Positions 9,592 to 42,960 of a stretch of DNA of 42,960 bases are shown here, piece by piece. Positions within the stretch are counted from its first letter, which is position 1; every line of letters begins with the position of its first letter. The notes under the pieces were generated by a model. That model was given only the letters and a program-made list of their open reading frames with translations. It had not been told where the DNA came from and searched no databases. Origin of the DNA: a virus; IMG/VR virus record IMGVR_UViG_3300036791_001259, positions 1-42,960 of that record; one strand, written 5' to 3'. The position numbers and the translations under genes were made by a program.

Positions 9592-9593
9592 GT

Positions 9594-9777: not shown

Positions 9778-10015
9778 TGCGCCAGCCTCGCCTCGAACGC
9801 TGCCATGTTGACGGGGACGCCTACCGGCTCCGGCGCGGGCGCCGCCAGCGTGCGTTCCATTGACTGCAGCCCGTTTTCACGTAGGCGTCAGAGAGTTGCT
9901 GGTACTGATTGAACGCCCGAGTCGAAATGTCCTTCCTTGCGGCATCGAACGGAATGCCCAGCACACCCTTAAAGAATTTCGAGGTATCGGCGTTGGTCAT
10001 CTGCGACAATGCCAT
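9774..10015 (-). pseudogene. Apparently frameshifted small gene
   Basis: From ATG 10015 the frame reads MALSQMTNADTSKFFKGVLG, then a helical segment with FNQYQQLSDAYVKTG, after which it turns into an Arg/Trp-rich stretch and ends at 9821. A -1 shift near 9872 restores plausible sequence (LQSMERTLAAPAPEP) ending at TGA 9774-9776, which overlaps the next start as ATGA. Upstream of 10015 the frame is also open and coding-like without a start. This suggests a decayed gene, a sequencing error, or less likely a translational frameshift. A 28-aa frame from ATG 9860 could also be translated alone. Confidence 0.4.
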
Positions 10016-10076
10016 GGCATCGCCGATCGCCTTGAACTCGGTAAAGGATTGCGCCAGGTTGCCGACGGCGGCGGCA

Positions 10077-10268
10077 TCAAACCTGGGCCACGATGCTCAA
10101 TTCCGCGATTGCATCCTCGCGGCACACGCCATAGTCGGAAATTACCGCATCGTAATCGGCAAAGCCGTAATCGCGTGCCATCGCGTCAAGAGCGGCGGAT
10201 TCAGTTTCAGCGGAATAGACGCCTAGATGCTCGCCAGTGTTCATGTTGTAGATCGAATAGGTGCGCAT
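10077..10268 (-). CDS. Small conserved-type phage protein, 63 aa
   Basis: ATG 10268 follows the shared 17-base leader. The protein (MRTYSIYNMNTGEHLGVYSA, then ALDAMARDYGFADYDA) matches a small family seen as hypotheticals in alphaproteobacteria and their phages. The family has an N-terminal beta hairpin and a helix with D-A-M-A-R-D. It is the first gene of the leftward small-gene operon. Its upstream region has an operator-like palindrome at 10298-10312. Function unknown. Confidence 0.75.
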   Translation of the reverse strand: MRTYSIYNMNTGEHLGVYSAETESAALDAMARDYGFADYDAVISDYGVCREDAIAELSIVAQV

Positions 10269-10270
10269 GA

Positions 10271-10287
10271 TGTTTCCCTTTCGAGGA
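10271..10287 (-). promoter_or_regulatory. Repeated 17-nt translation leader, copy 2
   Basis: The minus strand reads TCCTCGAAAGGGAAACA two bases before ATG 10268, identical to copies 1 and 3. Confidence 0.75.
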
Positions 10288-10297
10288 GCGATTTAAT

Positions 10298-10312
10298 GTG
10301 TCCAATATACAC
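10298..10312. promoter_or_regulatory. Operator-like palindrome related to the 5257 site
   Basis: GTGTCCAATATACAC matches 12 of 15 positions of GTGTCTAATTGACAC at 5257-5271 and is itself palindromic at its ends. It lies 30 bp upstream of ATG 10268 and covers a -10-like TATATT on the minus strand, a suitable place for repression. Confidence 0.55.
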
Positions 10313-10525
10313 AACCCGGGAAGGATTGCACTACGGACAAAACCGGACAACTCCGTAAAGATCGGCAATCCCCGTAGACGCGGGGATAGGCTCAGGATGC
10401 GCACATTTCCGCAATTCCGTTTTTGTTCTGGATCAGCCACAATCCCGAGCGGCCCGAAATCAGGTCCGAACCGGCCCATTATTGTTAAAACCATAACAGC
10501 TCCAACATGTTAACCCTGCGACATG

Positions 10526-10540
10526 TTGTCCAATTGACGT
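10526..10540. promoter_or_regulatory. Third, weaker operator-like site
   Basis: TTGTCCAATTGACGT shares 11 of 15 positions with the 5257-5271 operator, including the TGTC-AATTGAC core. It lies directly beside the ACATGT palindromes in the same intergenic region. Confidence 0.4.
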
Positions 10541-10766
10541 AATTCCCACCCGTCGATTGTCTCACGCGCGGCTCCTCGGCACTAGCCAAACCGACCCGGC
10601 AGCGATCGCCGCTCGAACGCCACCGGGACGGCCCAGAGCCCACCGGACAGCCAACTCGGCCTCAAGCCGGCGGGAACGGAACCAAAAGACCCAACCCAAT
10701 CGCTCACGACCACCAAACCCAGCGACCCCAAAGCCCGCGGTCGAAGCAATGAAAGAGGGTTAGTCG

Positions 10767-10796
10767 TTGCACGGCCTAGGCTTTTACTCCTATTCT
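10767..10796 (+). promoter_or_regulatory. Candidate sigma-70-type promoter for the methylase operon
   Basis: TTGCAC (10767-10772) and TATTCT (10791-10796) are separated by 18 bases and lie upstream of the methylase gene on the plus strand. The match is moderate and unsupported by other data. Confidence 0.35.
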
Positions 10797-10836
10797 GACG
10801 GCTTTCCCGCCTCCGGTTCTGCCTCCGTTCCGTTCG

Positions 10837-10852
10837 CATAATGTGCATTATG
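10837..10852. promoter_or_regulatory. Perfect dyad CATAATG-TG-CATTATG
   Basis: Seven-base arms are perfectly inverted around a 2-base centre. The dyad lies 41 bp downstream of the candidate -10 and about 70 bp before ATG 10924. It is a plausible operator, possibly autoregulatory for the methylase. It stands out as AT-rich within GC-rich DNA. Confidence 0.5.
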
Positions 10853-10923
10853 GAACATCGGTGTTTCAGTACCTCTCCGGGGGTGCCTGGTCCCCCCCGG
10901 GGCGCGCCGCGGCGCCCAGGCCG

Positions 10924-11793
10924 ATGGGTCCGCGCGGCTACCCGCAAGTCGCCCCCTCCATCCCCCGCCCCAAAAAATTCTGCGAGGATTGTGGCAGGGC
11001 GGACGGTGAGGCATTCTCTGTCTGGGGTGCTGGGATATTGTGGGAGGTGTGTCTGGTGCGGTCTTTGGCGGTTGACCTGTTCTGCGGGTTGGGTGGTTGG
11101 GCTGAGGGGCTGATGGCTGAGGGCTATGATGTCGTCGGGTTTGACATCGAGCTCCACGTTTACGGCCAGCACCGGTATCCGGCGCAGCTCGTCATTCAGG
11201 ACGTGCTGACCTTGCACGGCTCGCAATTCAAGGACGCTGCGCTGATCGTGGCATCGCCGCCGTGTCAGGCCTACAGCTATAGAGCCATGCCATGGTCGCG
11301 AGCCAAGGCACTGCCGCCGCCGGACAACACGCTGTTCGAGGCGTGCTTCCGCATCCAGCGCGAGGCGTGCGCGGCGGCCGGGCGGCACATTCCGATGGTG
11401 GTCGAGAACGTGCGCGGGGCGCAGAAATGGGTTGGGCGCGCGCGCTGGAACTTCGGCAGCTTCTATCTGTGGGGCGACGTGCCGGCGCTGATGCCTGTCA
11501 TTGGCGGTCGCGTGAAGCTCAAGGGCGGCGATGTCGGATGGCGCGAGCGAGGGCCAGGGCGCCAACTGCAGGACCGCGCCGTCGCCCACAACACGACCAG
11601 CGGCAAAGGGCGCAACCCGGATGGGCGCAAGGGCGTTGGCTCCGGCGCGGCATGGTTCGACGCCAATCTGTGCGTCTATCCAAGCAGCAGTCCGCGCCGC
11701 AAAGCCGCATCGGCCATGATTGCGAAGATTCCGTTTGATCTGGCGCGCCACATCGGGCGCTCATTGCGGGAACCGCAAGGGGTCGAGCGATGA
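10924..11793 (+). CDS. C5-cytosine DNA methyltransferase, 289 aa
   Basis: Canonical C5-methylase motifs appear in order: motif I AVDLFCGLGGWAEGL, motif II VGFDIE, motif IV VASPPCQAYS with catalytic Cys114, motif VI VVENVRG, and motif X IPFDLARHIGRSL. The target-recognition region is short. Before motif I lies FCEDCG with a later Cys43, possibly a small zinc knuckle. The start is uncertain: GTG 10843, ATG 10924 and GTG 11056 are all in frame, and 10924 keeps the Cys cluster. It likely protects phage DNA from restriction; no cognate nuclease is nearby. It heads a rightward run of small genes leading to the 2OG oxygenase. Confidence 0.9.
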   Translation: MGPRGYPQVAPSIPRPKKFCEDCGRADGEAFSVWGAGILWEVCLVRSLAVDLFCGLGGWAEGLMAEGYDVVGFDIELHVYGQHRYPAQLVIQDVLTLHGSQFKDAALIVASPPCQAYSYRAMPWSRAKALPPPDNTLFEACFRIQREACAAAGRHIPMVVENVRGAQKWVGRARWNFGSFYLWGDVPALMPVIGGRVKLKGGDVGWRERGPGRQLQDRAVAHNTTSGKGRNPDGRKGVGSGAAWFDANLCVYPSSSPRRKAASAMIAKIPFDLARHIGRSLREPQGVER

Positions 11794-11972
11794 AGACGAT
11801 CGAGGAGTGGCAGGAGTTGTGCCGGCCTGGGATGCCGTTCACGGGCTATGCGGCTGCGGTGATTGCGGAGATGCGGGGCGGCGAGACCGACAAGGTCGAG
11901 GTGCTGGCGCGTGCGATGGAGGCGTTGAGCCGCAACGCGCATGCGGGGGAGAAAGAAGATGACCGAGCCTGA
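11790..11972 (+). CDS. Small protein of unknown function, 60 aa
   Basis: ATG 11790 overlaps the methylase stop as ATGA. The peptide is helical (MKTIEEWQELCRPGMPFTGY, then AAVIAEMRGGETDKVEVLAR) with an acidic end. No known motif. The tight overlap and normal codon use support it. Confidence 0.65.
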   Translation: MKTIEEWQELCRPGMPFTGYAAAVIAEMRGGETDKVEVLARAMEALSRNAHAGEKEDDRA

Positions 11973-13072: not shown

Positions 13073-14131
13073 ATGACCCCCCTCCTGCTCGATAATTTCT
13101 TCCCGGCTGAACTGTACGATCGGCTGCGCGCGACCGTGCGCGAAGCGCCGATGAGCTACGGCTCCAAGTCCAACCGCAACACCGACCCGCACGGCCACTG
13201 GTCGTGGAAGCCGATCCACGACTCGACCCACAATCTGGCCGATCTGAGCGATCTACTCAACAGCACACACAATTTATGGGCCACGAATGAGGGCTGGAAA
13301 TTTCTGCGCATCAATCGCTGCAATGACATGAAGCTGGTGCGCTGCTACGCCAACGGCTACACCTACGGGACGGACGGCTACTTCCATACCGACAGCGAGC
13401 GCGCCGGCGACCTGACCGTCATCATCTACATTTGCGACGACTGGCCGATGGACTGGGCCGGCGAGACCGTGTGTACGGATGGAAAGACTTACTGGTCCTA
13501 TCTGCCGCGCCCCAATCGGGTGGTGATCCTGCCCTCCGACATGCTGCACGCTGCTAGAGCAGTAAGTAGAAAATGTACATCGCTACGGACTACGTTGATG
13601 TACAAGGCGCGGCCGGCCCGGTCGGAAACCTTTGAGCATCAATCCGCTTGGCTGCGCGACCACGGTGCGCTCGCCATCAAGCACGCGACCGGCTCGCTGC
13701 ACGACCACCTGATGCGCTGCCATCAGCTGCTGGACGATCGCAAGACGACGCCGCCGTTTTCATGTTTATGGACCGCCGGTGGGCTGCACTCGATCTATGG
13801 CACCAATGCTTTCGCCAAGGTGCTGGTCGAGCCGACCGAGAGCAACCGTGCCGAGGTGGCCGACGCCTTCGGCAAGGCGGCCGAGGAGCTCGCCTACCTG
13901 TTCCATCTCATCGACCGCCCCAAGACGCTCGATCGCGAGATCAGGGAGGGGATGGACGTCGCCTACCGCTTCGCCGCCAACGGCTTCATCCCCAACGAGA
14001 AGTTCCGGGCGCTCCAGCTCATCGAGTGCGCCAACCTGGCCGACCAGAATAAGCTCGCGGGGTGGCCCAACCTGGCGAAACTGTGGAAGGGAAAAAGTGA
14101 TGCCGCCGCATCCGTATCCTCCGGCCTATAA
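13073..14131 (+). CDS. 2OG-Fe(II) oxygenase fused to an HD-like (DUF6817-type) domain, 352 aa
   Basis: Residues 1-180 form a prolyl-hydroxylase-type dioxygenase: FHTD with His105 and Asp107, WAGETVC as the strand before the core, LHAA with His159 as third iron ligand, and Arg172 as probable 2-oxoglutarate anchor. Residues 195-320 look like a separate metal-binding helical domain: IKHATGSLHDHL, then AGGLHSIYGT with His239, as in DUF6817 HD-like proteins. Oxygenases of this type hydroxylate protein, small-molecule or nucleic-acid targets; the substrate here is unknown. The gene uses the shared 17-base leader and sits near a cytosine methylase, but it does not show TET/JBP signatures. Confidence 0.85.
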   Translation: MTPLLLDNFFPAELYDRLRATVREAPMSYGSKSNRNTDPHGHWSWKPIHDSTHNLADLSDLLNSTHNLWATNEGWKFLRINRCNDMKLVRCYANGYTYGTDGYFHTDSERAGDLTVIIYICDDWPMDWAGETVCTDGKTYWSYLPRPNRVVILPSDMLHAARAVSRKCTSLRTTLMYKARPARSETFEHQSAWLRDHGALAIKHATGSLHDHLMRCHQLLDDRKTTPPFSCLWTAGGLHSIYGTNAFAKVLVEPTESNRAEVADAFGKAAEELAYLFHLIDRPKTLDREIREGMDVAYRFAANGFIPNEKFRALQLIECANLADQNKLAGWPNLAKLWKGKSDAAASVSSGL

Positions 14132-20904: not shown

Positions 20905-20950
20905 CATGTGTAACTATGCAGAATTGCATATTCGGTGGTAAGCGCGGCTT

Positions 20951-21403
20951 ATGCCCCTCCCTGGTGCGATGCCCCCGACGACCATGGGCGGCCCGATGCC
21001 GCCCGGCAGGCCGATGCCGAAGTCGCCTTTCGGTGGTCCCGGTGGACCCGGCGCCTCGCCGGCGCTGTCACCGGGCGGCGGTGCCGGCAACGAGGCCGCC
21101 GCCATCGCCGACATCAAATCCACCATCCCGCTGCTGATGAAGTCGGCCAACAACTTTCCGGTCGGCGACAAGCGCCGCCAGGCGCTGTTGCGCGCGGTGA
21201 TGGCGCTGGAGGCCAATTTCGGCAAGAGCGACACCGACGACCTGACCGGCGCGGCGGCGCAGCGCATCGGCGCGGCCGCCAAGAGCGGCCAGGGCTTGCA
21301 AGGTCACAATATGCCGCCGCCGGGGATCATGCTGGGCGGCCCGTCACCGATGATGGGCGGCGGCATGGGCGGCGGCATGGGAGCGCCAGGAGGCATGGGA
21401 TGA
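20951..21403 (+). CDS. Pro/Gly/Met-rich head-region protein, 150 aa
   Basis: The N terminus (MPLPGAMPPTTMGGPMPPGR) and C terminus (Met/Gly repeats) are low complexity. The middle is a helical segment (AAIADIKSTIPLLMKSANNF, RRQALLRAVMALEANFGK). Such small proteins often lie between portal and capsid genes. A role in head assembly is inferred from position only. The stop overlaps the next HNH gene as ATGA. Confidence 0.65.
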   Translation: MPLPGAMPPTTMGGPMPPGRPMPKSPFGGPGGPGASPALSPGGGAGNEAAAIADIKSTIPLLMKSANNFPVGDKRRQALLRAVMALEANFGKSDTDDLTGAAAQRIGAAAKSGQGLQGHNMPPPGIMLGGPSPMMGGGMGGGMGAPGGMG

Positions 21404-21855
21404 GCCTCACCTCGCTGCCCGCCAGAATCGAGCGCAAGATCATCCCGGAGCCGATGAGCGGGTGCTGTCTATGGCTGGGCGGTGTTGACGGTCGCGGCTA
21501 CGGCTATCTGAAAAACCGACAGACCATGCGCGTGCGCGGTGTTCACCGCATGGTTTACGAGAACATCAAGGGTGAATTGCCGGATGATGTTTGTTTGATG
21601 CATTCGTGCGACAACCCGCCGTGCTGTAACCCTGATCATTTGTTTCCCGGCACCAGGTTGGACAATAATCTTGACCGGGATCGGAAGAACCGCGTGCGGC
21701 ACGGCGAGCGGCACACCAAAGCGAAGCTGAGCGCGGCCCAGGTTGCTGAAGTCAGGGCTTCCGCTGAACGCGCTTGCGATATTTCCGTCCGGCTCGGAGT
21801 TTCGAGTTCGACAATTTCGAACATCCGTGCGGGCCGGACCCGGCGACGCGGTTAG
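21400..21855 (+). CDS. HNH endonuclease with C-terminal HTH, 151 aa
   Basis: ATG 21400 overlaps the upstream stop. The protein begins with the module RKIIPEPMSGCCLWLGGVDG, shared with the HNH gene at 28553. The HNH core is VHRMVYENIKG, CLMHSCDNPPCCNPDHL and NLDRDRKN. The C-terminal 40 residues (KLSAAQVAEVRASAE, ISVRLGVSSSTISNI) form a helix-turn-helix for DNA recognition. It is a free-standing homing-type endonuclease inserted in the head gene cluster. Confidence 0.88.
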   Translation: MSLTSLPARIERKIIPEPMSGCCLWLGGVDGRGYGYLKNRQTMRVRGVHRMVYENIKGELPDDVCLMHSCDNPPCCNPDHLFPGTRLDNNLDRDRKNRVRHGERHTKAKLSAAQVAEVRASAERACDISVRLGVSSSTISNIRAGRTRRRG

Positions 21856-23902: not shown

Positions 23903-24850
23903 ATGAGAACTGGTGGTCCGTTTCCGTTCAATCCAGCCGGCTCATTTCCGGTTGCGCTCGGCGCCGGCGCCTATTTCTACGTTCCGCCCGGCCAGTACCT
24001 GATGAACCTGGGACCGCTGACCGCGCTGCAATGGTGGGATCCGATCGGCTACACCTGGCGCGGCGGACTGTCGACCACAGACCATGCCTTCGCCATGTCG
24101 ACCGACGGCTACAACTACCGCCTCATCAATGTGTCGGGCGCGGTGGTCAGCGTCACGGTCGGCACCGCCGGCTCGGGTGGCGTGAACGGCATCGGCCCGA
24201 CCCAGACCGGCTCCAATGTGAACTTCGCGGCCGGCGCCGGCCTCACCGCCAAGGGCTACGTCATCGTCGGCGGCGCGCTGGCGGCCCCGACCGTCACCCA
24301 GGCCGGATCGGGATTCACGGCCATACCCTTGATTCTGATCGACCCGCCCCCGGCCGGCGGCATCCAGGCCACCGCCATCGCCACCATCACCGCCGGCGGC
24401 GCGCTCAATACCGTCACCCTGGTCAATGCCGGCGCCGGCTACACCACGCCGCCCAACTTTTACGTCATCCCGCAGTTCCTGGACTATCCGGGCGCCCCGG
24501 CGATCCCGGGCGTCATCCCCAATGCGCCGACCCCGATCGCCCCCAACTTCCCGCCCGGCCAGATCGCCATCGGCCCGGGTGGCGGCGGCGCCGCCTACCT
24601 CCCGCAGAATTTCATGCAGGGCCTGCAAGGCGCGTTTCCATTCTCGACCGGCGCGCTGGTGACCTCCGGCGCCTTGACCGGCTCCGGCACCGTGACCGGC
24701 ATCGTCGTGACCAATGGCGGCTCGGCCTATGCGGCGGCGCCCGCCGTTACTTTCAGCGGCACCTCGCTCGGCACCGCGGCCGCCACCGCCGTCCTGGGCG
24801 CGGCCGCCGCCACCGACTCATCGATCATCCAGGCTTTCGTCAACGAATAG
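23903..24850 (+). CDS. Beta-rich virion protein with repeated G-x-GY modules, 315 aa
   Basis: It follows the capsid gene and hairpin copy C. The protein is Gly/Ala/Thr/Val-rich and beta-type, with at least two copies of a module of the form T-x-x-G-S-G-[FY]-x-x-x-P (VTQAGSGFTAIP near residue 130; VVTNGGSAYAAAP near 270). The module also occurs in the genes at 25808 and 26738. The N-terminal part (FYVPPGQYLMNLGPLTALQW) is better ordered. A head decoration or stabilisation protein is likely; no catalytic motif. Confidence 0.7.
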   Translation: MRTGGPFPFNPAGSFPVALGAGAYFYVPPGQYLMNLGPLTALQWWDPIGYTWRGGLSTTDHAFAMSTDGYNYRLINVSGAVVSVTVGTAGSGGVNGIGPTQTGSNVNFAAGAGLTAKGYVIVGGALAAPTVTQAGSGFTAIPLILIDPPPAGGIQATAIATITAGGALNTVTLVNAGAGYTTPPNFYVIPQFLDYPGAPAIPGVIPNAPTPIAPNFPPGQIAIGPGGGGAAYLPQNFMQGLQGAFPFSTGALVTSGALTGSGTVTGIVVTNGGSAYAAAPAVTFSGTSLGTAAATAVLGAAAATDSSIIQAFVNE

Positions 24851-24862: not shown

Positions 24863-25408
24863 ATGGACTGGTCCGCTTACACGGAGCTCCTCAACGAACT
24901 GGCGCAGGCGCGCCGCGATGCCTATGAAAGCGCGCCCCGCACCACGCCTGCGCACCTCGACGCCGCCATCTTCCTGGCCATGCTGCAGGCGCTCAATAGC
25001 TACATGAAGGACAACCCGGCTCCGGTTCTGTCCGCGCTGACGCCCGCCACGGCCGTTTCCGGCGCCGATGACTTCACGCTGTCCTGCACCGGTACCGGTT
25101 TTACCGACAGAAGCGTCATCGTGTTCGGTTCGCACGACGAACCGACCACCCTGGTGTCCGATACCGAGGTGACCACCATCGTGAAGCCGTCACTGTTTGC
25201 CCCGGCGGAGGTGCCGGTGTGGGTGCGCAACGGCCCATCGGCCTCCGATTCGGTCAATTTTACCTTCACGGAGCCGGAATTGCCGCGCGCGGCCGCTGCC
25301 GAGCATCCAGAACCGGTCGCGGAGGCCGAATCGGAGGCCGAATCGGGCACCGAGGACGATTCCGAAGACTCTTCCTCCAAGAGGAGCAAGCATGCTCGCC
25401 GAAAATAA
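24863..25408 (+). CDS. IPT/TIG-domain virion protein, 181 aa
   Basis: An N-terminal helical segment (WSAYTELLNELAQARRDAY) is followed by an immunoglobulin-like IPT/TIG domain: VLSALTPATAVSGADDFTLS, then GTGFTDRSVIVFG and VPVWVRNGPSASDSVNF. The C terminus is a very acidic, Ser-rich tail ending in a Lys/Arg patch. Ig-like domains of this kind are often displayed on phage heads. Function as a head or collar decoration is inferred. Confidence 0.75.
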   Translation: MDWSAYTELLNELAQARRDAYESAPRTTPAHLDAAIFLAMLQALNSYMKDNPAPVLSALTPATAVSGADDFTLSCTGTGFTDRSVIVFGSHDEPTTLVSDTEVTTIVKPSLFAPAEVPVWVRNGPSASDSVNFTFTEPELPRAAAAEHPEPVAEAESEAESGTEDDSEDSSSKRSKHARRK

Positions 25409-26737: not shown

Positions 26738-28543
26738 ATGCCCGACCTGACCGCGCTCCAACTCAACACCAAGAAATACATCGTTTTCTCCGGCTTTGAA
26801 ACGATGGACACGCAGTCGGCGCGCGAGGCGTTGCCGGTGACTCGGCTGGCGTGGTGCGAGAATTTGCAGATCGTCGGTCCCAACCAACTGGTGTGCTGCA
26901 ACGGCCCGGCAGCGCCGATCAACAACATTCCAAACGAAAGCATCTCGGCGCAATACTACGCCAACTTCACCCCGCCCGGCGGCGTCAATACCGATTACAT
27001 CATCTGTTTTTGCCAGTCCGGGGCGGCCTACCAAGTCAATGCCCTCACCGGCGCTTTCGTCAAATTTGCGCTCGCCGGCACCTTCTCGCCCACGCCGGAT
27101 ATGACGGTGTGGTCGTCGCAGCGGCTGCTGATTGCGGACCCGATCGCCGGCTACTGCACCTGGGACGGCAACGCCTTTGTTCAGACCGGCAGCGTGTCCC
27201 CAAATATCGTGGTCACCAACGGAGGCTCTGGCTATGCATCTCCCCCCTCCGTCACCATCACCGGTGGAGCGGGCTCCGGCGCCCTCGCCCACGCCGTCAT
27301 CACCGGGGGAGTGGTCACGGCAGTTGTTCTCGATGCCGCCGGGACCGGCTACAAGGCGGGGGACACCCTCACTGTCACCTTCGGCAGCGGCACTGCTGCT
27401 GCAACGGCTATCGTATGGCCATTCTTCAGCGTCACGCCTACCACCCTCGCCGTCTATGCCGGCCGTGTCTGGCTGGCGGGCACGCGCGTCGTTACTTGGA
27501 CGGGAACAAAAGGCTTTGACGACGCAGCTGCGGCGAATGCGTCGGGGTCAACGACCCTGAACGACGCCGACCTGGTCCACACCATCACGGCATTGCGCTC
27601 GCTCAACAACTTTCTCTATATCTTTGGCGACAACTCGATCAAGCAGATCGGCACCGTCACGGTTTCCGCCAGCACCACGATCTTCAACATTGTGACGTTG
27701 TCGTCGGACCAGGGAACTCCATTCCCGAGGGCGATTGCCTCGTACAATCGTTTGATCCTATTCGCGAATAAAGTAGGGGTGTACGCCATACTTGGAGCCT
27801 CGGTGGAGAAAATCTCCGATCAGATGGATGGGGTGTTCTCGTCGTTGGACTATTCGCAGCAGATTCAGGCGGCGGTGAACGATCTGCACACATCCTTGCA
27901 CACGTTCCTGCTGCTGGCGCGCTACAAGGACCCGATCGCCGGCGTCACCCGGTCGCTGATCATGTGCTTCTACAAGAACCGCTGGTTTGTCGCCAACCAG
28001 GGCAGCAATATCACCACCATCTGCTCGGCCCCGATCGGCGGCATCATCGAGACCTTCTCCTCCTCCGGCGCGGATGTCACGCAGATTTTCCAGTCCACCA
28101 CGCCGGTGCCGATCATCCTGCGCACCTCGCTGTCGGCCAACCAGGAATTTCACATCGGCAAGAAGGCGCTGCGCGGGGCGGTGGCGCTCAATTCGAGCAC
28201 GCTCACCACCATGTACGGCACTTGCGACACCGAAAACAACAACCCCGGTGTTCCGTTCTCGTTCTCGACCGCGATTCCGATCCTGTGGGTGAACAATGCC
28301 GGGATCGTCATTGCGTGGCAGAACAACGCATTGCAGCCGATCACCTGGGCCGCGGTCGGCTTCCTCTACCAGCGGGTCGAGGTGTCCGGCTCGGGAGTAT
28401 TTCTCGGGCTGACCTTGACCGGCACCTTCATGGGCAGCGCCGGCGGGGGCGGTTCGCCGGGCAACACGCAAGGTCTGGTGATCAATGGTCTGGTCATCGA
28501 GTATCAACCGAAGACTGTACTAGCCTCCCGTATGAATGCATAG
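26738..28543 (+). CDS. P22 gp10-like packaged-DNA stabilisation / tail hub protein, 601 aa
   Basis: The protein has a beta-propeller-like organisation with repeated aromatic strands: VWSSQRLLIADPIAGYCTWD, VYAGRVWLAGTRVVTW, LNNFLYIFGDNSIKQIGT, YNRLILFANKVGVYAI and MCFYKNRWFVANQGSN. This fits the family of packaged-DNA stabilisation proteins that close the portal in P22-like phages. Residues 155-225 contain the G-S-GY beta module (VVTNGGSGYASPPSVTITGG). It starts behind hairpin copy D. The family call is moderate because repeats diverge. Confidence 0.7.
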   Translation: MPDLTALQLNTKKYIVFSGFETMDTQSAREALPVTRLAWCENLQIVGPNQLVCCNGPAAPINNIPNESISAQYYANFTPPGGVNTDYIICFCQSGAAYQVNALTGAFVKFALAGTFSPTPDMTVWSSQRLLIADPIAGYCTWDGNAFVQTGSVSPNIVVTNGGSGYASPPSVTITGGAGSGALAHAVITGGVVTAVVLDAAGTGYKAGDTLTVTFGSGTAAATAIVWPFFSVTPTTLAVYAGRVWLAGTRVVTWTGTKGFDDAAAANASGSTTLNDADLVHTITALRSLNNFLYIFGDNSIKQIGTVTVSASTTIFNIVTLSSDQGTPFPRAIASYNRLILFANKVGVYAILGASVEKISDQMDGVFSSLDYSQQIQAAVNDLHTSLHTFLLLARYKDPIAGVTRSLIMCFYKNRWFVANQGSNITTICSAPIGGIIETFSSSGADVTQIFQSTTPVPIILRTSLSANQEFHIGKKALRGAVALNSSTLTTMYGTCDTENNNPGVPFSFSTAIPILWVNNAGIVIAWQNNALQPITWAAVGFLYQRVEVSGSGVFLGLTLTGTFMGSAGGGGSPGNTQGLVINGLVIEYQPKTVLASRMNA

Positions 28544-28552
28544 GATACTCCC

Positions 28553-28948
28553 ATGCCAAAAACACTCACCAAAGCGGATTTTGATGAGCGTTACATCCCC
28601 GAGCCGATGAGCGGCTGTTGGATTTGGCTGAACAGGCTGGACCGAAACGGATATGGATTTTTCCGGGGCGTCACTGCCTCCCGGGCTTCGTATTTGTTTC
28701 ATAAAGGTCCACTTCCTGATGGACACGAGATTGATCATCTGTGTCGCCTGCGCTGTTGCGTCAATCCAGATCATTTAGAGGCGGTAACTCACAGCACTAA
28801 TGTTCTTCGCAGCGATCATCGTTGCCGGAGGCAGACGCATTGCATCAACGGTCACGAATTTAATCTTGAAAACACTTACATATCCAAGAAGAACAAGCGC
28901 ATGTGCAGGGAGTGCTCAAAACTCAGAATGAGAAGAAGGAGAGCGTAG
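28553..28948 (+). CDS. HNH endonuclease, 131 aa
   Basis: The protein starts with RYIPEPMSGCWIWLNRLDRN, the same module as in the HNH gene at 21400. The nuclease core has GHEIDHLCRLRCCVNPDHLE and NVLRSDHR with the HNH residues. The end has a zinc-type CINGHEFN and MCREC with a basic tail. Base composition is more AT-rich than the virion genes around it. Free-standing homing endonuclease; the upstream stop is 10 bp away rather than overlapping. Confidence 0.88.
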   Translation: MPKTLTKADFDERYIPEPMSGCWIWLNRLDRNGYGFFRGVTASRASYLFHKGPLPDGHEIDHLCRLRCCVNPDHLEAVTHSTNVLRSDHRCRRQTHCINGHEFNLENTYISKKNKRMCRECSKLRMRRRRA

Positions 28949-29302
28949 ATGCCCATCTTCTTCCACTCAACAGTTTTGCCGCACGACGCCACCGGCTTCT
29001 CAATCTGGCTGCAGGAGCATTACCTGGAACATGCGCAATTCGTGCAGATCTTCCAGGCCAAGACGCCGACGCCGATCTTCATCCCAGACTACAACTTCGC
29101 GCTCTGGGGTGACGACAAAAAGGTGATGAGCGCCTGGCTGGAGTCGCACCAGGCCACCCATCAGTCGCTGCGTGACTTTACCGGCGTTTCCGGTATTGAT
29201 CTTTCCGACGTCGACCTGACCCAGGATGACCAATTCTTTGACTGGATGGACTCACACGCTGCTGAACATGCTGATATAAGAGCCGTATTGAGGATCATCT
29301 GA
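28949..29302 (+). CDS. Phage virion-region protein, 117 aa
   Basis: ATG 28949 follows the HNH stop with no gap. The sequence has HDATGFSIWLQEHYLEHAQF, a beta strand PTPIFIPDYNFALW and a C-terminal helix WMDSHAAEHADIRAVL. Proteins with this His-rich pattern sit next to GNAT genes in related phages. Function unknown; the stop overlaps the GNAT start. Confidence 0.65.
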   Translation: MPIFFHSTVLPHDATGFSIWLQEHYLEHAQFVQIFQAKTPTPIFIPDYNFALWGDDKKVMSAWLESHQATHQSLRDFTGVSGIDLSDVDLTQDDQFFDWMDSHAAEHADIRAVLRII

Positions 29303-29769
29303 TGGACAAGATCGTTTTTGCCGTGGAAGAACTGACGCCCGATCTGATCCCGACCGAGATGATGCTCGATCATTACGAGGAGAACGCCCCGTTCAAGCAC
29401 ACGTTGCGGATGGACATGGATTGGACGGAGTACCTGGACGCACAGGATGATGACGAATTTTTCCTGATCACCGCCCGGCTCGACGGCAAGCTGGTCGGCT
29501 ACATGGGCATTTTCGTGCATCCGCACCTGCACTATCGTGAAACCATGGTGGCGGTGGATGACGCCCATTACCTGATGCCGGGCTTCCGCGGCCAGGGCGC
29601 CGGCAAGGCGATGATCGATTTTGCGGAAAAGACCGCGGCCGCGCGCGGCGCCACCGTGTTTTCGATGCGCTGCAAGGTGGCGCAGAATCACGGCCACATT
29701 TTCGAGTCGCTCGGTTACAAGCTCACCGATCTGGTGTACCTGAAAGACATCGGCAGACCGCGGGAGTGA
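29302..29769 (+). CDS. GNAT-family N-acetyltransferase, 155 aa
   Basis: The acetyl-CoA binding motif A is clear: FRGQGAGKAMIDFAE, with the preceding strand HYLMPGF and the following TVFSMRCKVAQNHGHIFESL, then GYKLTDLVYLK. Length fits a single GNAT domain. GNAT genes commonly lie among virion genes of podoviruses, where the acceptor is unknown. Acetylation of a host or virion protein is inferred. Confidence 0.88.
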   Translation: MDKIVFAVEELTPDLIPTEMMLDHYEENAPFKHTLRMDMDWTEYLDAQDDDEFFLITARLDGKLVGYMGIFVHPHLHYRETMVAVDDAHYLMPGFRGQGAGKAMIDFAEKTAAARGATVFSMRCKVAQNHGHIFESLGYKLTDLVYLKDIGRPRE

Positions 29770-36382: not shown

Positions 36383-36567
36383 CGACCAACAAGAGCGATG
36401 AATTGTTGAGCGAAATGGAAGCCGGAATTTTGTCTATGCTCAAGAACAAGCGGCTAACCAACACCGAGCGGATGAAGGCGATCGAGGCCGGGGCCAAGGT
36501 GCTGATGATCAGACACAAGATTTCAGATGGAGGTGCGACTGATGGAGCCTTCTTTGCAAGGAAATAA
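36379..36567 (+). CDS. Small helical protein, 62 aa
   Basis: GTG 36379 overlaps the upstream stop (GTGA). The sequence is a two-helix protein (SDELLSEMEAGILSMLKNKR, TNTERMKAIEAGAKVLMIRH). Its 3' end overlaps the start of the membrane protein at 36542. Function unknown; regular late-operon spacing supports it. Confidence 0.65.
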   Translation: MTTNKSDELLSEMEAGILSMLKNKRLTNTERMKAIEAGAKVLMIRHKISDGGATDGAFFARK

Positions 36568-36943
36568 GCCCCTCCCCGAGGGTGTGTCCGAGTCCGACCT
36601 GGTGGATGGGCCGAAGGTGCATCATCTGCCCTCCGGCCGCGGCTCGTTCCTGCCGCCGGAGCCGGAGGCCCTGGTCAAGCCGATCCCGGCCAGCCCACCC
36701 CCCACACCTAGTACGGCGCAGATCAAACTGGAATATCCCGCTGCGATCGAGCTTGCCCTCGACGTGCTTTCAGCCCGCCTTCTCGGTCTCATCTGCCTGG
36801 TGGCGGCCTGCCTGATCTGGGCCGGCATCGTCTGGGACCCGCAGCGCGACCGGATTATTGCGGGCGGCGTTTTTTCGCTAACTGTGTTCCTCCCGATTAT
36901 GGCAATCTACTGGCGTGCTGCCATGAAAGGAGAACAAGCATGA
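36542..36943 (+). CDS. Two-span membrane protein, holin candidate, 133 aa
   Basis: ATG 36542 has a strong GGAGGTG (36529-36535), so it is preferred over ATG 36527. A 65-residue soluble Pro/Glu-rich N terminus leads to two membrane spans (LLGLICLVAACLIWAGIV and IAGGVFSLTVFLPIMAIYW) near the C terminus. It could be a holin or a membrane-anchoring partner. The stop overlaps the next start (ATGA). No endolysin gene is adjacent. Confidence 0.6.
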   Translation: MEPSLQGNKPLPEGVSESDLVDGPKVHHLPSGRGSFLPPEPEALVKPIPASPPPTPSTAQIKLEYPAAIELALDVLSARLLGLICLVAACLIWAGIVWDPQRDRIIAGGVFSLTVFLPIMAIYWRAAMKGEQA

Positions 36944-37194
36944 AAACCATCGTCGTGACCTTTGCACTTTTGACCGGCTGCAGCGTCATTCTATGGGGCG
37001 TGCAGCACTTTCACGCCCGGGCGCATGCCATGACCTTCGAGCAACGCGCCGGCCACATGTTCGATAGCGTTGACCGCACGCTCAAGGGCGACCGGCTGCC
37101 GCTTTCGGGCCTGGAAGGAGGTGCATTGATCGACAGTCATTCGGTCCATGCGCTGATCTTTCGAACCGGCGAAACTGAAATGCCGGCCCGCTGA
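36940..37194 (+). CDS. Exported or lipobox-bearing protein with R-A-G-x-M-F motif, 84 aa
   Basis: The start overlaps the previous stop (ATGA). The N terminus is an export signal (MKTIVVTFALLTGCSVILWG) that contains a canonical lipobox LTGC; an alternative signal peptidase I site is Ala-His-Ala at residue 30. Directly after that comes MTFEQRAGHMF, the motif shared with two internal virion proteins. The rest is short and polar. It may be a lipoprotein or membrane-anchored factor; spanin or entry roles are possible. Confidence 0.6.
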   Translation: MKTIVVTFALLTGCSVILWGVQHFHARAHAMTFEQRAGHMFDSVDRTLKGDRLPLSGLEGGALIDSHSVHALIFRTGETEMPAR

Positions 37195-37205
37195 CGGAGA
37201 GTGCG

Positions 37206-37376
37206 ATGCCGAGCTCGACCCCAAAGCAGAAACGGTTCATGGCGGCGGCGGCGAACAACCCCAAGTTTGCGCGCGAGGCCGGCATTCCGACCAGGGTTGC
37301 CCGCGAGTTTCACGCCGCCGATCGCGGCACGGGTCGCACGAAGAAGCGCCGTAGTCGGCGCGGCAGGAGGGGTTGA
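37206..37376 (+). CDS. Small basic phage protein, 56 aa
   Basis: The sequence MPSSTPKQKRFMAAAANNPK, then FAREAGIPTRVAREF and an Arg-rich tail, matches a small conserved phage family typified by QxRFMAAAAxNPxFAxxAGIP. GGAGAG precedes ATG 37206. Its stop overlaps the next start as TGATG. Function unknown; the family is usually found in virion gene clusters. Confidence 0.75.
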   Translation: MPSSTPKQKRFMAAAANNPKFAREAGIPTRVAREFHAADRGTGRTKKRRSRRGRRG

Positions 37377-37723
37377 TGAGGGCTTTCTGGCTTGTCGCAA
37401 TGTTGCTGGCCACCCCGGCCAATGCCCAACAGGCGCGCTTCAACTGGCTTGGCTACTGCCAGATAACGTCGCTGGCCACGGCCAAGCCGATGGTCACCGC
37501 TTCCTGCTCCACCGGAGCGGTGCCGCCGACGCCGGTGGTCGCGGAAATATGCGTGAGCGGCGCCGCCGTGCGCTACACCAGCAGTCCCACCGTCACCCCG
37601 ACCGCCAGCCTCGGCATTCCGGTCTCCACCAATACCTGCTTTCAGTATTCCGGGCCGGTCAACAGCCTGCAGTTCATCCAGCAGGCTGCCACCGCCACTC
37701 TTGACATCGAGTTCTTCCAATGA
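37376..37723 (+). CDS. Exported small tail-region protein, 115 aa
   Basis: ATG 37376 overlaps the upstream stop as TGATG. The first 17 residues (MRAFWLVAMLLATPANA) are a clear Sec signal peptide with an Ala-x-Ala site before Gln-Gln. The mature protein is beta-rich with four cysteines (GYCQI, ASCSTG, EICVSG, NTCFQY), an even number suited to disulfides. The stop overlaps the start of the fibre gene. The function is unknown; linkage suggests a partner of the fibre. Confidence 0.7.
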   Translation: MRAFWLVAMLLATPANAQQARFNWLGYCQITSLATAKPMVTASCSTGAVPPTPVVAEICVSGAAVRYTSSPTVTPTASLGIPVSTNTCFQYSGPVNSLQFIQQAATATLDIEFFQ

Positions 37724-39186
37724 GGGCGCCCAGCGCGTTGATCGCGCTCGCGCTGTTGGCGGGCGTTGCCCAGGCGCAGATCGGCCCACCCGGCACCGCG
37801 TCGATCGGTCCTGGCGGCGGTGGCGGCGGCGGTGGTGGCGGCGGCGGCGGTACCGTCACCAGCATTGCCACCGGCTGCCAGGCGACCGGCGGCACCATCA
37901 CCACCACCGGCACGATCTCGACCCAATTCATCCTTTCCGCATCTTCGCCGGTCGTCACCACGCCCTATACCATCCAGGCCGCCGATGGCTGCAACAACCT
38001 GCTGCTGGGCACCGGAGCTTCGGTGCTGACCTTGCCGGCGACCGTCACTGCCGGCTTTGGCAACGGCAACTACTTCACCATCGACAACCGCTCGGCCGGG
38101 GCGGTGACGATGAACGTCACCACCAACAACCTTGACGGCGCGACGGCGGTCACCATTCCGGCCAACGGCACCATCTCGTTTCAGAGCGATGGCACCAATT
38201 ACCACTACACGCAGGCGCCGGCGGCCGGCGGCGCCGGCATCACCCAGCTTACCGGCGACGTGACCGCCGGCCCCGGATCGGGCTCGCAGGTCGCCACCTT
38301 AGCCGCCACCACCATCAACAAGATGGCGGTGACCGCGCCGGCCACCGGCTCCACCATCGCGATCGCGGACGGCACCACCTTCGCATCCAGTACTTCAATG
38401 ACGCTGGCCGCCGGCACCACCAGCCAGACTTGGACATTCCCTGCTGTCACCGGCGGCACCATTGCCGTTCTCAGTGTTGGCAACACATTCACGCAGCCTG
38501 TTAATGTCACCAACAGCGCCACAATTCTCAGTAACGAACTTGCGATACGCAACACCAGCACCGCTAATGGGGCGGCAGCGGGCATATCGCTTAGTAACAA
38601 TGCTGCGCTGAATGTGGTGTCTATGTTTTTGAATGGTAGCAACACCACTACCGGCAACAACACTTCTTCATTCACTATTAACAACACCGAAGCGACGGCT
38701 ACCGGAGGAATCTTTCTTCAGGCGCAGGGCGTCAATGCCCTTACCATCAGCAAGGCGGCGGCGGTCGGCTTGCCTTCGATTGCTTCCTCGTCGGCCGCGA
38801 CCACCGGGACCGTCTGCTGGACCACCGTCACCGGTAACCTGACGGTCGACACCACGGTCGCCTGCCTGTCCTCGCTGGAGGAATTGAAGGACATCAAGGG
38901 GCCGATCACCGGGGCGCTGGACGAGATTTCGCAGCTCGAGCCGTTCTGGTACGAATGGAAGGAAGGCACGCCGCAGCGCGCCGGCGACACCCACGAGCAG
39001 CCGGGGCTCGGTGCGCACCAGACCGAGCGCGTCGACCCACGGCTGGCCGGCTACAATCCCGAGGGCAAGCTGATCGGCGTGCGCTACCAGCAGCTCGTCG
39101 CGCTGCTGATCGCCGGCATGCAGGAGCAGCAGCACCAGATCGACGACCTCAAGGCCCTTATCGGCCGGCGCGCGGAGGCGCGGTAA
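37720..39186 (+). CDS. Exported fibre protein with S74 intramolecular chaperone domain, 488 aa
   Basis: The start overlaps the upstream stop (ATGA). Residues 1-19 (MRAPSALIALALLAGVAQA) are a Sec signal peptide, followed by a run of 13 glycines. The body is Thr/Asn/Gly-rich beta structure as in trimeric fibres. The C-terminal 100 residues are the Peptidase S74 chaperone: SSLEELKDIKGPITGALDEI, LEPFWYEWKEG, then GLGAHQTERVDPRLAG and a C-terminal helix. S74 domains fold the trimer and cut themselves off at the Ser before the domain. It has four cysteines. An export signal on such a protein is unusual. Confidence 0.85.
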   Translation: MRAPSALIALALLAGVAQAQIGPPGTASIGPGGGGGGGGGGGGGTVTSIATGCQATGGTITTTGTISTQFILSASSPVVTTPYTIQAADGCNNLLLGTGASVLTLPATVTAGFGNGNYFTIDNRSAGAVTMNVTTNNLDGATAVTIPANGTISFQSDGTNYHYTQAPAAGGAGITQLTGDVTAGPGSGSQVATLAATTINKMAVTAPATGSTIAIADGTTFASSTSMTLAAGTTSQTWTFPAVTGGTIAVLSVGNTFTQPVNVTNSATILSNELAIRNTSTANGAAAGISLSNNAALNVVSMFLNGSNTTTGNNTSSFTINNTEATATGGIFLQAQGVNALTISKAAAVGLPSIASSSAATTGTVCWTTVTGNLTVDTTVACLSSLEELKDIKGPITGALDEISQLEPFWYEWKEGTPQRAGDTHEQPGLGAHQTERVDPRLAGYNPEGKLIGVRYQQLVALLIAGMQEQQHQIDDLKALIGRRAEAR

Positions 39187-39189
39187 TCA

Positions 39190-42100
39190 ATGCTCAATAG
39201 GGTGTTCCTGCTGTTCGCACTGCTCGGCGCGTTGCTTGGGCACGCGGACGCCCTGCAGTTCTATGTGTCGTCGACCGGTTCGCTCCCCGCGATGCCCTGG
39301 CAGTCGGCCCAGCAATGGGGCGGCGGGCTCTATGCGCACCAGAGCCTGGCGGCCAATACCGGCGTGCATCTGCTGGCCGGCGACGGCGGCGGCGTCTATC
39401 TGCAAAGCTCGGTGGATGGCTCCTGGCACCAGCTCATGACCTTCGCCGGGTTGGCTCCCGCCACTTGCGGAGGCGTTGCCTGCATCGGCATCACCGGCAC
39501 CGGCACCACGCAGGCATTTCAGCCCTGGGTCGGCGCCAACGACATATGCGCCTCGCCGGCCAGCTCGGGGCGCGCCTGGATCGTCTGGAACGGGTACATC
39601 TTCCGCAGTAACAACGTGAATCCGGCCAACCCGGAGGCCACCACCTTCATCAACACCAACCAGCTTCCCAACGGCGGGTTCACCAAGAGCACGGACAGCA
39701 ACAACACGACCAATCGGGTGACCGGGCCATTTCTCGGCTGCGATCCCAACAACGCTAGCCATGTGATATTTGGCTCGCAGGGCGCCTCGGCCACGACGCC
39801 GCAGGTATGGGAAAGCCTCGACGACGGCTCCACTTTTGCGGCTTACCCGTCTGGCGCCATCCCGGTCGCGCCGTTCACCAGCAACGGCAATATTTACATC
39901 AACGCTTTCGATCCTGCTTCCGGGGTTACCGGCACGGTCACCACGGCGTCCGGGCTCACCGGCACCGGGCTGACCAAGACCTGGTGCGTATTCACCAGCG
40001 CCGCCGGCACCGGCCATGTGTTTTGCACCGTCGACGGCGGCGTGACCTGGTTTCAGGCCGGCACCGGAGGACCGACGACTGCCGCTCACCTGGAGTTCAA
40101 TCCGACCAATCATACCTTGTTCGTGGTCGACAATGCCTCGCTTGCTTCGTTGTGGAGCTGCAGCATAACAAGCTCCAGTTCTTGCACCACATGGACTACG
40201 CTCATCACCGGCTCATCTGGCACTTCGGTGGCCTGGATGGCCTGCGATCCTGTCACCCCGACGCATTGCGCTGCCTTGGATGGCGGCGGGCAGCTTTATG
40301 TTTCCACCGCTTCGGGGGCGGCCGGTACCTGGAGTTCAGGCTTTACTTACAATATCGCGGCCGGTGATTCCGTATGGTACGCGAACACTTTGTTCACGTT
40401 TTCGTCGTCCTACAACATCGTGTTCGATTCGGCGCATCCCGGAATCATATACGGCGATCTTGGGCAGGGGCATTACAAGACGACATTTCCGAGCGGCTCT
40501 TTCACATGGACCACCAACTTGCTGGGATCCATGCACGCTTCGGCTTCCTCCGTGGGCATATCCGCCTCGTTGAAGCCGCTTTACGGGTCGCAGGACATCA
40601 GCCTGTGCAACATCGACATCACGATGCTGCCGCAGACCGTTTGCGGCCGTCTCAGCATTTTCAACGGCTTGAAGTACACTTCCTATGTGGGTCCTTCGGT
40701 GTCGGACCCGACCTACACGGTAGCGGAGGTGGCTGCCAACTTTTCGGCCAATGGCGATCTTTCCGGCTGGTCGCGCGACGGGTTTCTGACCGATTACCAT
40801 CCTTGGAACCGCTGGGAAAACGAGGTTGTCGCCAATGTCGGGATTTGCGGCTCGATCGGCAGCGGTAATTGCGCGACGGCTTCCGGCAATGTGCGGGTGA
40901 CGATCAATCCGTCCGGGACGGTTCATGACACGTCTGGCCTGACGACCTGGGTCAATGGGCAAGGCACTATTTTGTGCAGTATTTCCAGGTTTCGTATCAA
41001 TGGGACGAATGTGCTTTATAACGGAAACACCCCGATCAAGAGCTGTTTCCCGGTTTCCGTTGTCAGCTCATCGCAGTTCGATCTGATCGGCGCGGCTTAC
41101 ACCAGTGCCTTGACGAGCATCACCAGTCAGATCAATGGCGCTCCAGGGTCTTACTTTTTTTTCGATCCTACTTATCCGGGGTCGAACCTTTCCTACGCGC
41201 GCAACATCACCTCGGTGGGCACGGATGCCGGCAATGGGCTCATTCAGGTGTGCATGTTCGACACGCGCGGGGCTCCAGTGTCCCCTATGCTCATAGACAT
41301 AACCGGCATCATCGACAACACCGGGCTGTCGCCGGTCAACGGCCGCTATATTATCGAGAACCCTTCTTCCAGCAGCATAAACGGACTTCGCTGCATGGAT
41401 CTCGGTCCTACGTCGACGCTTCCGGGCGGGTTCAGTTATGTCAGCGGTGGGACCGGGTTGACTTATGTTCAAGCCGGCGGGGCGCTGGCGGCTTCTGGAA
41501 ATTTTCTTGTTGTTGCCGCTGGCAGCAATGAGACTCCGCGCTGTTCCACCGATCTTGGAACCAGCGTGGCCGGCTGGAGCGACATTGTGAATCCAAGCCC
41601 GCCGTTTCTGGACACGGTGGCGAGCGGCGGGACATCTGGGTCCACCAGGATAACGACCGCGGGCAGCGGCATCGGGACTGCTGCCACCATCCTCATGCAG
41701 ATGGACGATGGCCGTTTTACTTATATTCTTCCAGAAGGAAATCTTTCGATCGGCTCTGGAACGTATACCACTGGGTCGGGAATGGTCACGCTTACGCTGC
41801 CGATCGAAACAGCGGCCATTACCGGCGATCAGGTGACACTCACTGCGTTGACGGGCACCGGAGCCTCTGCGCTCAACGGAACATATACACCCATAACGGT
41901 CACCGGTGGCGGCACCACGGTTTCGTTCATGGCGACCGCTGGCCTTGGCGCCATAACGATCACGGGCGGCACCTTCAACATCAGCGGTGCCGCCGTTCCG
42001 TTCGCGCGCGTCCCCAGCGCCTCCCCGGCCAACACCCACTATTCTATTCCTCCAGGTCGCACTGTTGCCAACGGCACGGGCATTCTCGATATTTCTCGCG

Positions 42101-42960
42101 GGTGGCCGCCCAACAATTTTCTGTTCGGCAAGGTGATCGCCGCCGACAAGGTTACGCCCAATCGGTTCTATCTGGTCAATTGGAAAACCGGCTTGTTGGC
42201 GTTTACCGGTTGCGGTTCACCTGTGCTCGTCAACGCAATGGCACGCCCCAATGGCTGGCTGCAGTTTGGCGGCACCAACGCCAAGCTCGATTCGGTTCCG
42301 GGCGAAGCAGGACACTTATTTTACACCGATGGCCCGCAGGGCAGTCCCTCGCATGGCAATGGGAGCCATAAGCTGCAGCGCACCTGCAACGGGGTGACCA
42401 ATTCTGCGGGCACTGGCAACGCTTTGCCGGGTGCGGTCATGCACGGCACCTTGGGCACATTCGCGCCGGCGACCTTTGGCTTTGGCATCCACGCTCCGGG
42501 CAAAACGTATCCGTCCATTGCGTATGTCGGGTTTTACGATCCAACAGGGAAGAATCTGGAAGCCAATGCCGTATATGGCATCTGGCGGTCGACGGACGAT
42601 CCCAATCACGGCAACACCGGCGCGGCTGCAGCATGCTTCGATTACAATGGCCAGCTCAATGGCGCGCAAATCATGGGCACAAATCTCACGTTCACCAGCG
42701 TGACTGCCGGCGCTGCGGGCGTCGGCGCAGTGGCGATCGGAGACGGTATTCTCGGCGTGAACGGCGACGTGGCGACAGGGACCAGGATCGTTTCCGGCAG
42801 CGGGCTGTCCTGGCAGGTCAATATATCTCAAACCGTTCCAACAGAGACGATGACGGCCGGCGGCACGTTCCAAAGCATTGGCACTTGGTTGACGGCCATC
42901 CCTGGCCAGCCGGCTTGGGGGAATCAGATCAACGATTTTGCTTGCGATCCGGTCGTTTTT
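39190..42960 (+). CDS. Exported Asp-box (beta-propeller-like) tail spike candidate, 5' part of a gene crossing the contig ends
   Basis: From ATG 39190 the frame is open to the end of the window and continues at base 2 to TGA 179-181, giving 1274 residues over the circular join. GGAGG (39174-39178) precedes the start. The N terminus is a textbook Sec signal peptide: Asn-Arg, then a Leu/Phe/Ala-rich core, ending in Ala-Asp-Ala near residue 21. The first third has Asp-box-like turns (SLDDGSTF, CTVDGGVTW) and WD40/BNR-like blades. The rest is Gly/Thr/Ser-rich beta-type sequence. I count 24 cysteines in the whole protein, often as neighbouring pairs, which suggests disulfides. Position after the fibre gene suggests a host-range or glycan-binding spike. 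An export signal is unusual for a virion protein, so a secreted or surface role is also possible. Confidence 0.85.
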   Translation, partial: MLNRVFLLFALLGALLGHADALQFYVSSTGSLPAMPWQSAQQWGGGLYAHQSLAANTGVHLLAGDGGGVYLQSSVDGSWHQLMTFAGLAPATCGGVACIGITGTGTTQAFQPWVGANDICASPASSGRAWIVWNGYIFRSNNVNPANPEATTFINTNQLPNGGFTKSTDSNNTTNRVTGPFLGCDPNNASHVIFGSQGASATTPQVWESLDDGSTFAAYPSGAIPVAPFTSNGNIYINAFDPASGVTGTVTTASGLTGTGLTKTWCVFTSAAGTGHVFCTVDGGVTWFQAGTGGPTTAAHLEFNPTNHTLFVVDNASLASLWSCSITSSSSCTTWTTLITGSSGTSVAWMACDPVTPTHCAALDGGGQLYVSTASGAAGTWSSGFTYNIAAGDSVWYANTLFTFSSSYNIVFDSAHPGIIYGDLGQGHYKTTFPSGSFTWTTNLLGSMHASASSVGISASLKPLYGSQDISLCNIDITMLPQTVCGRLSIFNGLKYTSYVGPSVSDPTYTVAEVAANFSANGDLSGWSRDGFLTDYHPWNRWENEVVANVGICGSIGSGNCATASGNVRVTINPSGTVHDTSGLTTWVNGQGTILCSISRFRINGTNVLYNGNTPIKSCFPVSVVSSSQFDLIGAAYTSALTSITSQINGAPGSYFFFDPTYPGSNLSYARNITSVGTDAGNGLIQVCMFDTRGAPVSPMLIDITGIIDNTGLSPVNGRYIIENPSSSSINGLRCMDLGPTSTLPGGFSYVSGGTGLTYVQAGGALAASGNFLVVAAGSNETPRCSTDLGTSVAGWSDIVNPSPPFLDTVASGGTSGSTRITTAGSGIGTAATILMQMDDGRFTYILPEGNLSIGSGTYTTGSGMVTLTLPIETAAITGDQVTLTALTGTGASALNGTYTPITVTGGGTTVSFMATAGLGAITITGGTFNISGAAVPFARVPSASPANTHYSIPPGRTVANGTGILDISRGWPPNNFLFGKVIAADKVTPNRFYLVNWKTGLLAFTGCGSPVLVNAMARPNGWLQFGGTNAKLDSVPGEAGHLFYTDGPQGSPSHGNGSHKLQRTCNGVTNSAGTGNALPGAVMHGTLGTFAPATFGFGIHAPGKTYPSIAYVGFYDPTGKNLEANAVYGIWRSTDDPNHGNTGAAAACFDYNGQLNGAQIMGTNLTFTSVTAGAAGVGAVAIGDGILGVNGDVATGTRIVSGSGLSWQVNISQTVPTETMTAGGTFQSIGTWLTAIPGQPAWGNQINDFACDPVVF
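42834..42960. repeat. Terminal direct repeat, right copy
   Basis: Identical to bases 1-127. When the two copies are merged the genome is a 42,833-bp circle and the 1274-aa spike gene becomes intact. Confidence 0.9.

Follow-up and report, generated by a model that had tools for sequence, protein, structure and literature searches.

Tail fibres and spikes are regarded as products of the cytoplasm. Phage lambda encodes a protein with an export signal, Lom, between its tail-tip and fibre genes (PMC12309495). For the fibre-type proteins of tailed phages, we met with no description of signal peptides in the open-access literature searched. Here we have analysed a viral DNA record of 42,960 bases (the whole stretch is termed the window below), in the late region of which three consecutive genes, D, E and F, encode proteins that begin with predicted Sec signal peptides. 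Judged from sequence, these are fibre- or spike-type proteins fitted for export and oxidation, lying in an exchangeable cassette.

The genome and the signal peptides of its late operon

The two ends of the window form an exact direct repeat of 127 bp (positions 1-127 are identical to 42834-42960), so that the record is circular, i.e. complete, and gene F crosses the junction. An assembly artefact is ruled out by the circular repeat together with the existence of relatives from several metagenomes. This is a soil-type virus of bacteria. Its capsid protein belongs to phrog_9953, and no tRNA was found within the window. A 42.6 kb contig (L057, JANXPR010000126.1) that was binned with an Acidobacteriaceae metagenome-assembled genome encodes a capsid protein 93% identical to that of the window. 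The binning provides a hint of an Acidobacteriaceae host, with the possibility that L057 is a mis-binned phage. Elsewhere in the genome there are Ig-like/TIG-type domain proteins encoded after the capsid gene (23903-24850, 24863-25408 and 26738-28543), in the early/middle region a protein that combines DUF6817 with a 2-oxoglutarate/Fe(II) oxygenase-like domain (13073-14131), two HNH_3 homing-endonuclease-type reading frames in the structural module (20935-21855 and 28553-28948) and an acetyltransferase-like gene (29302-29769).

The late operon comprises, in order, genes starting at 34745 (545 aa) and 36379 (62 aa), genes A, B, C, D, E and F, and a gene encoding a protein of 440 aa. Those from A onwards are discussed below, and all are on the plus strand. 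Gene A (36527-36943) lies upstream of the slot that contains D, E and F, encodes a membrane protein of 138 aa, and was found in all relatives examined. Gene C (37206-37376) is a conserved backbone gene encoding a basic protein of 56 aa (phrog_16759, 1.4e-15), and forms the left border of the slot in the alignment with the close sister L064. The right border is the 440-aa gene (211-1533), which is conserved in the relatives and encodes a fibre-like protein without a signal peptide. The N terminus of the latter resembles that of a classical fibre (profile match over 24 residues, E 0.0019).

Gene D (37376-37723) encodes a protein of 115 aa and gene E (37720-39186) one of 488 aa. The main part of gene F lies at 39190-42960, while its last 17 codons and stop lie past the circular junction at 128-181 (stop at 179-181), joined over the terminal repeat. 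The full-length protein of 1274 aa is thus complete only across the junction. The signal peptide of D is 17 residues in length (MRAFWLVAMLLATPANA/QQ, where the slash marks the cleavage site; 37376-37426), that of E is 19 (MRAPSALIALALLAGVAQA/QI; 37720-37776) and that of F is 21 (MLNRVFLLFALLGALLGHADA/LQ; 39190-39252). Each ends in Ala-x-Ala, as a first-pass annotation of this DNA had noted for three of four proposed signals. The signals were called using a home-made heuristic scoring rule, and the cleavage sites were placed by hand. D, E and F are all positive, and exhibit the properties of a type I Sec signal, i.e. a positive n-region, a hydrophobic core of 7-15 residues, small residues at -3 and -1 and a total length of ~17-25 residues. 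Among 171 control phage reading frames the heuristic called 6 (3.5%), of which two encode slot proteins of relatives with a hydrophobic N terminus, and it called 1.4% of N termini that had been shuffled. Since this base rate is low, the occurrence of three consecutive signal-bearing genes is not due to chance.

The positions of the starts are well defined. The ATG of D at 37376 overlaps the stop of gene C, that of E at 37720 overlaps the stop of D, and that of F at 39190 follows E, with GGAGG upstream. The frames are closed 0-7 codons upstream of the starts. With the starts lying beside the preceding stops, the hydrophobic N termini could therefore be avoided only by starting translation far downstream.

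Four exported proteins had been proposed in the first-pass annotation. The closed frames, the heuristic and the Ala-x-Ala sites uphold this for D, E and F, while the fourth, the 84-aa product of gene B (36940-37194; phrog_12008, E 0.002), is better set apart. Its hydrophobic stretch of ~18-20 residues is longer than those of D, E and F, and contains the sole cysteine of the protein. Moreover, an alignment of four homologues shows that the Ala-x-Ala is absent in some relatives (e.g. AKAEHY in G011). B was therefore rejected as an exported protein; it is a product of the conserved backbone, and is probably anchored in the membrane by an N-terminal transmembrane segment rather than having a cleaved signal peptide.

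The slot between gene C and the 440-aa gene

Relatives were found using a 618-aa portal-like gene and the 440-aa gene, and their late regions were read. The same slot is occupied in these relatives by non-homologous sets of signal-peptide genes. Five signal-bearing proteins are encoded there in G011, namely a homologue of D, a LamG-like protein, one of 879 aa and two others. At this position the G005 group has a small protein termed T, a D homologue, and proteins of 65, 269, 310 and 746 aa, the last with a twin-arginine-type signal; a similar set is present in G012. In the close sister L064 one 98-aa gene without a signal replaces the 5.7 kb of D, E and F, and the sequences aligning with window positions 37029-37339 and 209 onwards (~74% identity) map ~370 bases apart. 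No exported genes were seen in the slot of L057 or of two phages from Manatee Spring (capsid identity 55-56%). On the evidence of gene content, the segment between gene C and the 440-aa gene is an exchangeable accessory cassette.

Such genes are also found between the portal, capsid and tail genes of L096 (capsid phrog_212) and L091 (phrog_334), so that exported sets lie among the virion genes of three capsid families, including that of the window. The largest exported set seen is that of L096, where at least six to seven signal-peptide genes lie between the capsid and tail genes (2163-11808). We note that several small exported proteins (G005, G011, L091 and L096) end in the short motif CxGxLDLSxGC; in G005, G011 and L096 at least, a second exported family follows immediately downstream of them. 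The motif was seen in the slot regions of L051, L048, L062, L091 and L096.

Domains, homologues with and without signals, and cysteine residues

The mature part of D is a 98-aa domain assigned as a jelly-roll/double-stranded beta-helix; the assignment of D draws on the heuristic, the homologues and a structural model. The AlphaFold model has a pLDDT of 83.8, with the first 20 residues (i.e. the signal region) unstructured and of low confidence. The fold is close to those of many uncharacterised tailed-phage proteins (BFVD, E 2.8e-5, TM 0.6-0.7). A search of the PDB gave just the common jelly-roll/cupin arrangements, the best being spike P1 of PM2 (Z 8.2). Disulfide-linked endospore appendages (7a02 and 8pdz) also matched weakly, but this match was not trusted.

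Signal-bearing homologues of D are present in G005-G007, G014 and G011. Conservation of the signal, which the first-pass annotation had put forward as a point to check, was assessed for D; in G005 and G011 the signal is kept as a signal while its sequence drifts. Cysteine residues are present at D positions 59 and 88 (C59 and C88) in all three signal-bearing forms compared. By contrast L081, L082 and L087 contain the D domain lacking both the signal and any cysteine, beginning where mature D begins (MIDQRFVPVGYQQ... in the signal-less homologues compared to ...ADA/QQLFVYVPVGYQQ... in D). The neighbours of these signal-less forms are tail sheath and neck genes in L082, and a collagen-type fibre in L087.

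A second small beta-protein of the relatives behaves in the same manner. Its R form has no signal, while the T form has a hydrophobic N terminus followed by A-x-A-Q. The alignment of R with T begins at T residue 34 (97.3% probability, E 2.4e-11), and a fixed pair of cysteine residues is present in T and not in R.

A third family in the slot of relatives is a spike with a Tat-type signal. A twin arginine before the hydrophobic core together with AxA is found in this spike, a protein that the window does not encode. The signal has RR in four lineages and KR in one, with AxA/W (or SLA/W) in all five. In L102 the domain has no signal and begins at the mature domain (MPYVFGGNPNV...); its gene adjoins capsid and head-tail adaptor genes, and the protein contains 9 cysteine residues compared to 13-18 in the signal-bearing forms. 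The modelled spike is a right-handed beta-helix similar to GH136 (Z 18.8) and the Fri1 tailspike (Z 13.9), and also to lyases (VIA-align), in a model with a low overall pLDDT of 45.5 that reaches 70-90 just within about residues 130-400. Foldseek found nothing significant for this model. The signal-less homologues in the D, T/R and Tat families, which are the central line of evidence here, indicate that signals have been gained or lost on existing domains of tailed-phage structural regions. This change goes with a fixed cysteine pair in D and T/R, and with more cysteine residues overall in the Tat family.

In E the signal peptide is followed by a Gly-rich linker, a beta-rich tail-fibre-like body, and a C terminus (about 38872-39183) resembling the Peptidase_S74 intramolecular chaperone. 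The match to PF13884 (E 3.5e-4) scores 21.2 bits, slightly under the curated cut-off of 22. In Peptidase_S74 domains the lysine of the dyad lies five residues after the serine, and in E both are in place as S385 and K390. E also matches tail/fibre families of PHROG and Synechococcus phage fibres. Beyond the S74 end no relatives were found in GenBank phages, IMG/VR or PDB sequences. In Acidobacteriota genomes (L128-L146) most of the 19 sampled S74 proteins (annotated 'tail fiber domain') bear signals as judged by the heuristic or by eye, indicating that S74-type domains can fold after export.

Mature F comprises 1253 aa. Its description draws on the cysteine count and a motif scan, which found three Asp-box motifs (S/T-x-D-x-G-x-T-W); in shuffled sequences three were reached in 2.4% with one relaxed pattern, and the count was reached in 0.05% with another. 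There is a weak match to the BNR-type glycosylhydrolase family NF045728 of NCBIfam (E 0.006), far under its cut-off. No Pfam model matched even at E 10, and no relatives of F were found in GenBank phages, IMG/VR, 199 Acidobacteriota genomes, plasmids or PDB sequences. F is probably a glycosidase-like beta-propeller, the predicted activity towards glycans resting on the motifs. A GH74-like reading of F based on motifs was unconfirmed, and is not claimed.

The cysteine content is consistent with the signals. Mature D, E and F contain 4, 4 and 24 cysteine residues respectively, our recount agreeing with the numbers first given. An even number was found in 29 of 31 signal-bearing slot proteins compared with 24 of 61 cysteine-containing control reading frames (Fisher 3e-7). 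For this count the cleavage sites were assigned manually, a mechanical gene caller supplied the controls, and the sequence of one protein (G012_X) was pieced together from two nearly identical contigs. The 31 are not independent, and fall into ~17 families by hand grouping. Sixteen of these families are wholly even, and the Tat-type family is mixed (3 even, 2 odd). The median cysteine density is 2.1% in the signal-bearing slot proteins and 0.56% in the controls. The paired mature cysteines are missing from the signal-less forms in both the D and the T/R families. From the parity and the pairs we infer that D, E and F form disulfide bonds.

It might be argued that the N-terminal segments are uncleaved anchors in membrane or virion, or result from misjudged starts. 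B carries such an anchor, and in the T-type proteins AxA lies a long way beyond the hydrophobic core. Yet AxA precedes mature sequences that are unrelated, the Tat motif is conserved, and the cysteine parity is even when the mature part alone is counted. Moreover, the signal-less homologues start where the segment ends, and the starts are fixed by the gene overlaps and closed frames. We consider an anchor or a false start to be highly improbable. The first-pass annotation had raised the related case of N-terminal residues that belong to a tail-attachment domain. This does not hold, as the signal-less homologues start at the mature domain and residues 1-20 are unstructured in the model of D. 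No N-terminal virion-attachment domain was found on D, E or F, where the signal peptide occupies that place; by contrast the 440-aa neighbour has the classical N terminus.

It is thus very probable that D, E and F are exported, that their signals are removed and that they become oxidised. This proposal of the first-pass annotation is strengthened by the recurrence of signals in the slot, the even cysteine numbers and the signal-less homologues. The suggested kinship with fibres and spikes also stands, with B outside the set.

Possible roles of the signal-bearing proteins

We propose that D, E and F would be made late, together with the virion proteins, carrying cleavable Sec signals. The host Sec machinery would take them to the periplasm, where leader peptidase would cut the signals and their even-numbered cysteines would form disulfides. 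E may trimerise, and trim itself by means of its S74-type domain. Lysis (or a host exporter) would then release the three as extracellular glycan-binding or glycan-cutting proteins. These could act on the surface polysaccharide of the host, for example by clearing receptors or slime, so that progeny could spread. The D-E-F cassette would be accessory, lying beside an ordinary non-exported fibre gene, that of the 440-aa protein. The signal peptides, the exchange of the cassette, the signal-less homologues in structural gene clusters and the cysteine parity are seen in the sequences, whereas cleavage, disulfide formation, trimerisation, release and the glycan targets are inferred. A final role as free extracellular glycan-binding or glycan-cutting proteins is the one that we tentatively favour, at a little under an even chance, because of the glycan-type domains, the large size, the fast exchange and the dispensability of the cassette in a close sister.

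High turnover between sisters is also what receptor matching would predict. Exported D, E and F might bind a host glycan or receptor from the periplasm or cell surface late in infection, blocking the adsorption of other phages and of progeny to doomed cells. This would fit the presence of late receptor-type domains with export signals. However, we saw neither an outer-membrane anchor nor a lipobox on D, E or F, and there are up to seven proteins in one slot (L096), whereas the known periplasmic exclusion proteins are to our knowledge small single proteins. We therefore regard exclusion or receptor masking as unlikely.

Alternatively, D, E and F might be oxidised in the periplasm and then dock onto tails, either at the envelope or when lysis mixes the compartments, thereby providing disulfide-stabilised fibres or spikes. 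They lie in a fibre slot beside a non-exported fibre gene, and in most sisters examined the slot encodes a small beta-protein, which may or may not bear a signal. The exported lectin-like LamG-like protein of G011 matches a virion structural family (3e-13). In addition, completed particles can be supplied with tailspikes in vitro, as in P22. For the mature domains of D, T/R and the Tat-type spike there are cytoplasmic homologues encoded in structural gene clusters of phages, although this speaks equally for a virion role and for a free one. Against docking, we found no shared docking domain, the phage already owns a fibre gene whose product has an N terminus of the classical type, and the close sister L064 lacks D, E and F altogether; nor was there a precedent among tailed phages in the open-access literature searched. 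On balance docking appears doubtful, if a serious contender, and we retain a preference for free extracellular proteins.

Both outcomes would be unexpected, being either a secretome of a tailed phage aimed at host polysaccharides, or a part of the virion that is built outside the cytoplasm. If docking were true, disulfide-stabilised appendages would be acquired by a route that is undescribed for tailed phages in the literature searched. The same domain families exist in a plain and an export-ready form, the latter having a fixed cysteine pair in two of them, and the phages with export cassettes span three or more capsid lineages. To a gene caller, or to a program that predicts hosts from fibres, such genes pass for those of ordinary fibres. 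Disulfide-stabilised glycan binders and hydrolases would also be useful reagents.

The individual folds are already known. In the open-access literature searched, nothing matched an exchangeable late cassette that encodes exported, oxidised proteins of fibre or spike type, uses both Sec and Tat signals and occurs in several lineages. E shares its beta-rich body, S74-like C terminus and Ser-Lys spacing with the endosialidase-type S74 tail fibres, but a Sec signal peptide replaces the virion-attachment domain and the 21.2-bit score falls below the cut-off of 22. It resembles the exported bacterial S74 proteins in combining a signal peptide with an S74-like domain, but these are products of bacterial genes while E is encoded in a late phage operon. 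D has the same fold as small jelly-roll proteins of tailed phages (also a domain of the fibre protein A0A0F7L5U5), but has a signal peptide and cysteine pair that are absent from its sequence homologues in structural regions. The Tat-type slot protein of the relatives has the predicted beta-helical fold of tailspikes, GH136 and pectate lyases, from which it differs in its twin-arginine-type signal and its 13-18 cysteine residues. Lom of phage lambda is similar to D, E and F in that it bears an export signal and its gene lies next to fibre genes, but it forms a barrel in the outer membrane and is produced in lysogens (PMC12309495). By contrast D, E and F are predicted to be soluble proteins of fibre or spike type, and are encoded in a late operon.
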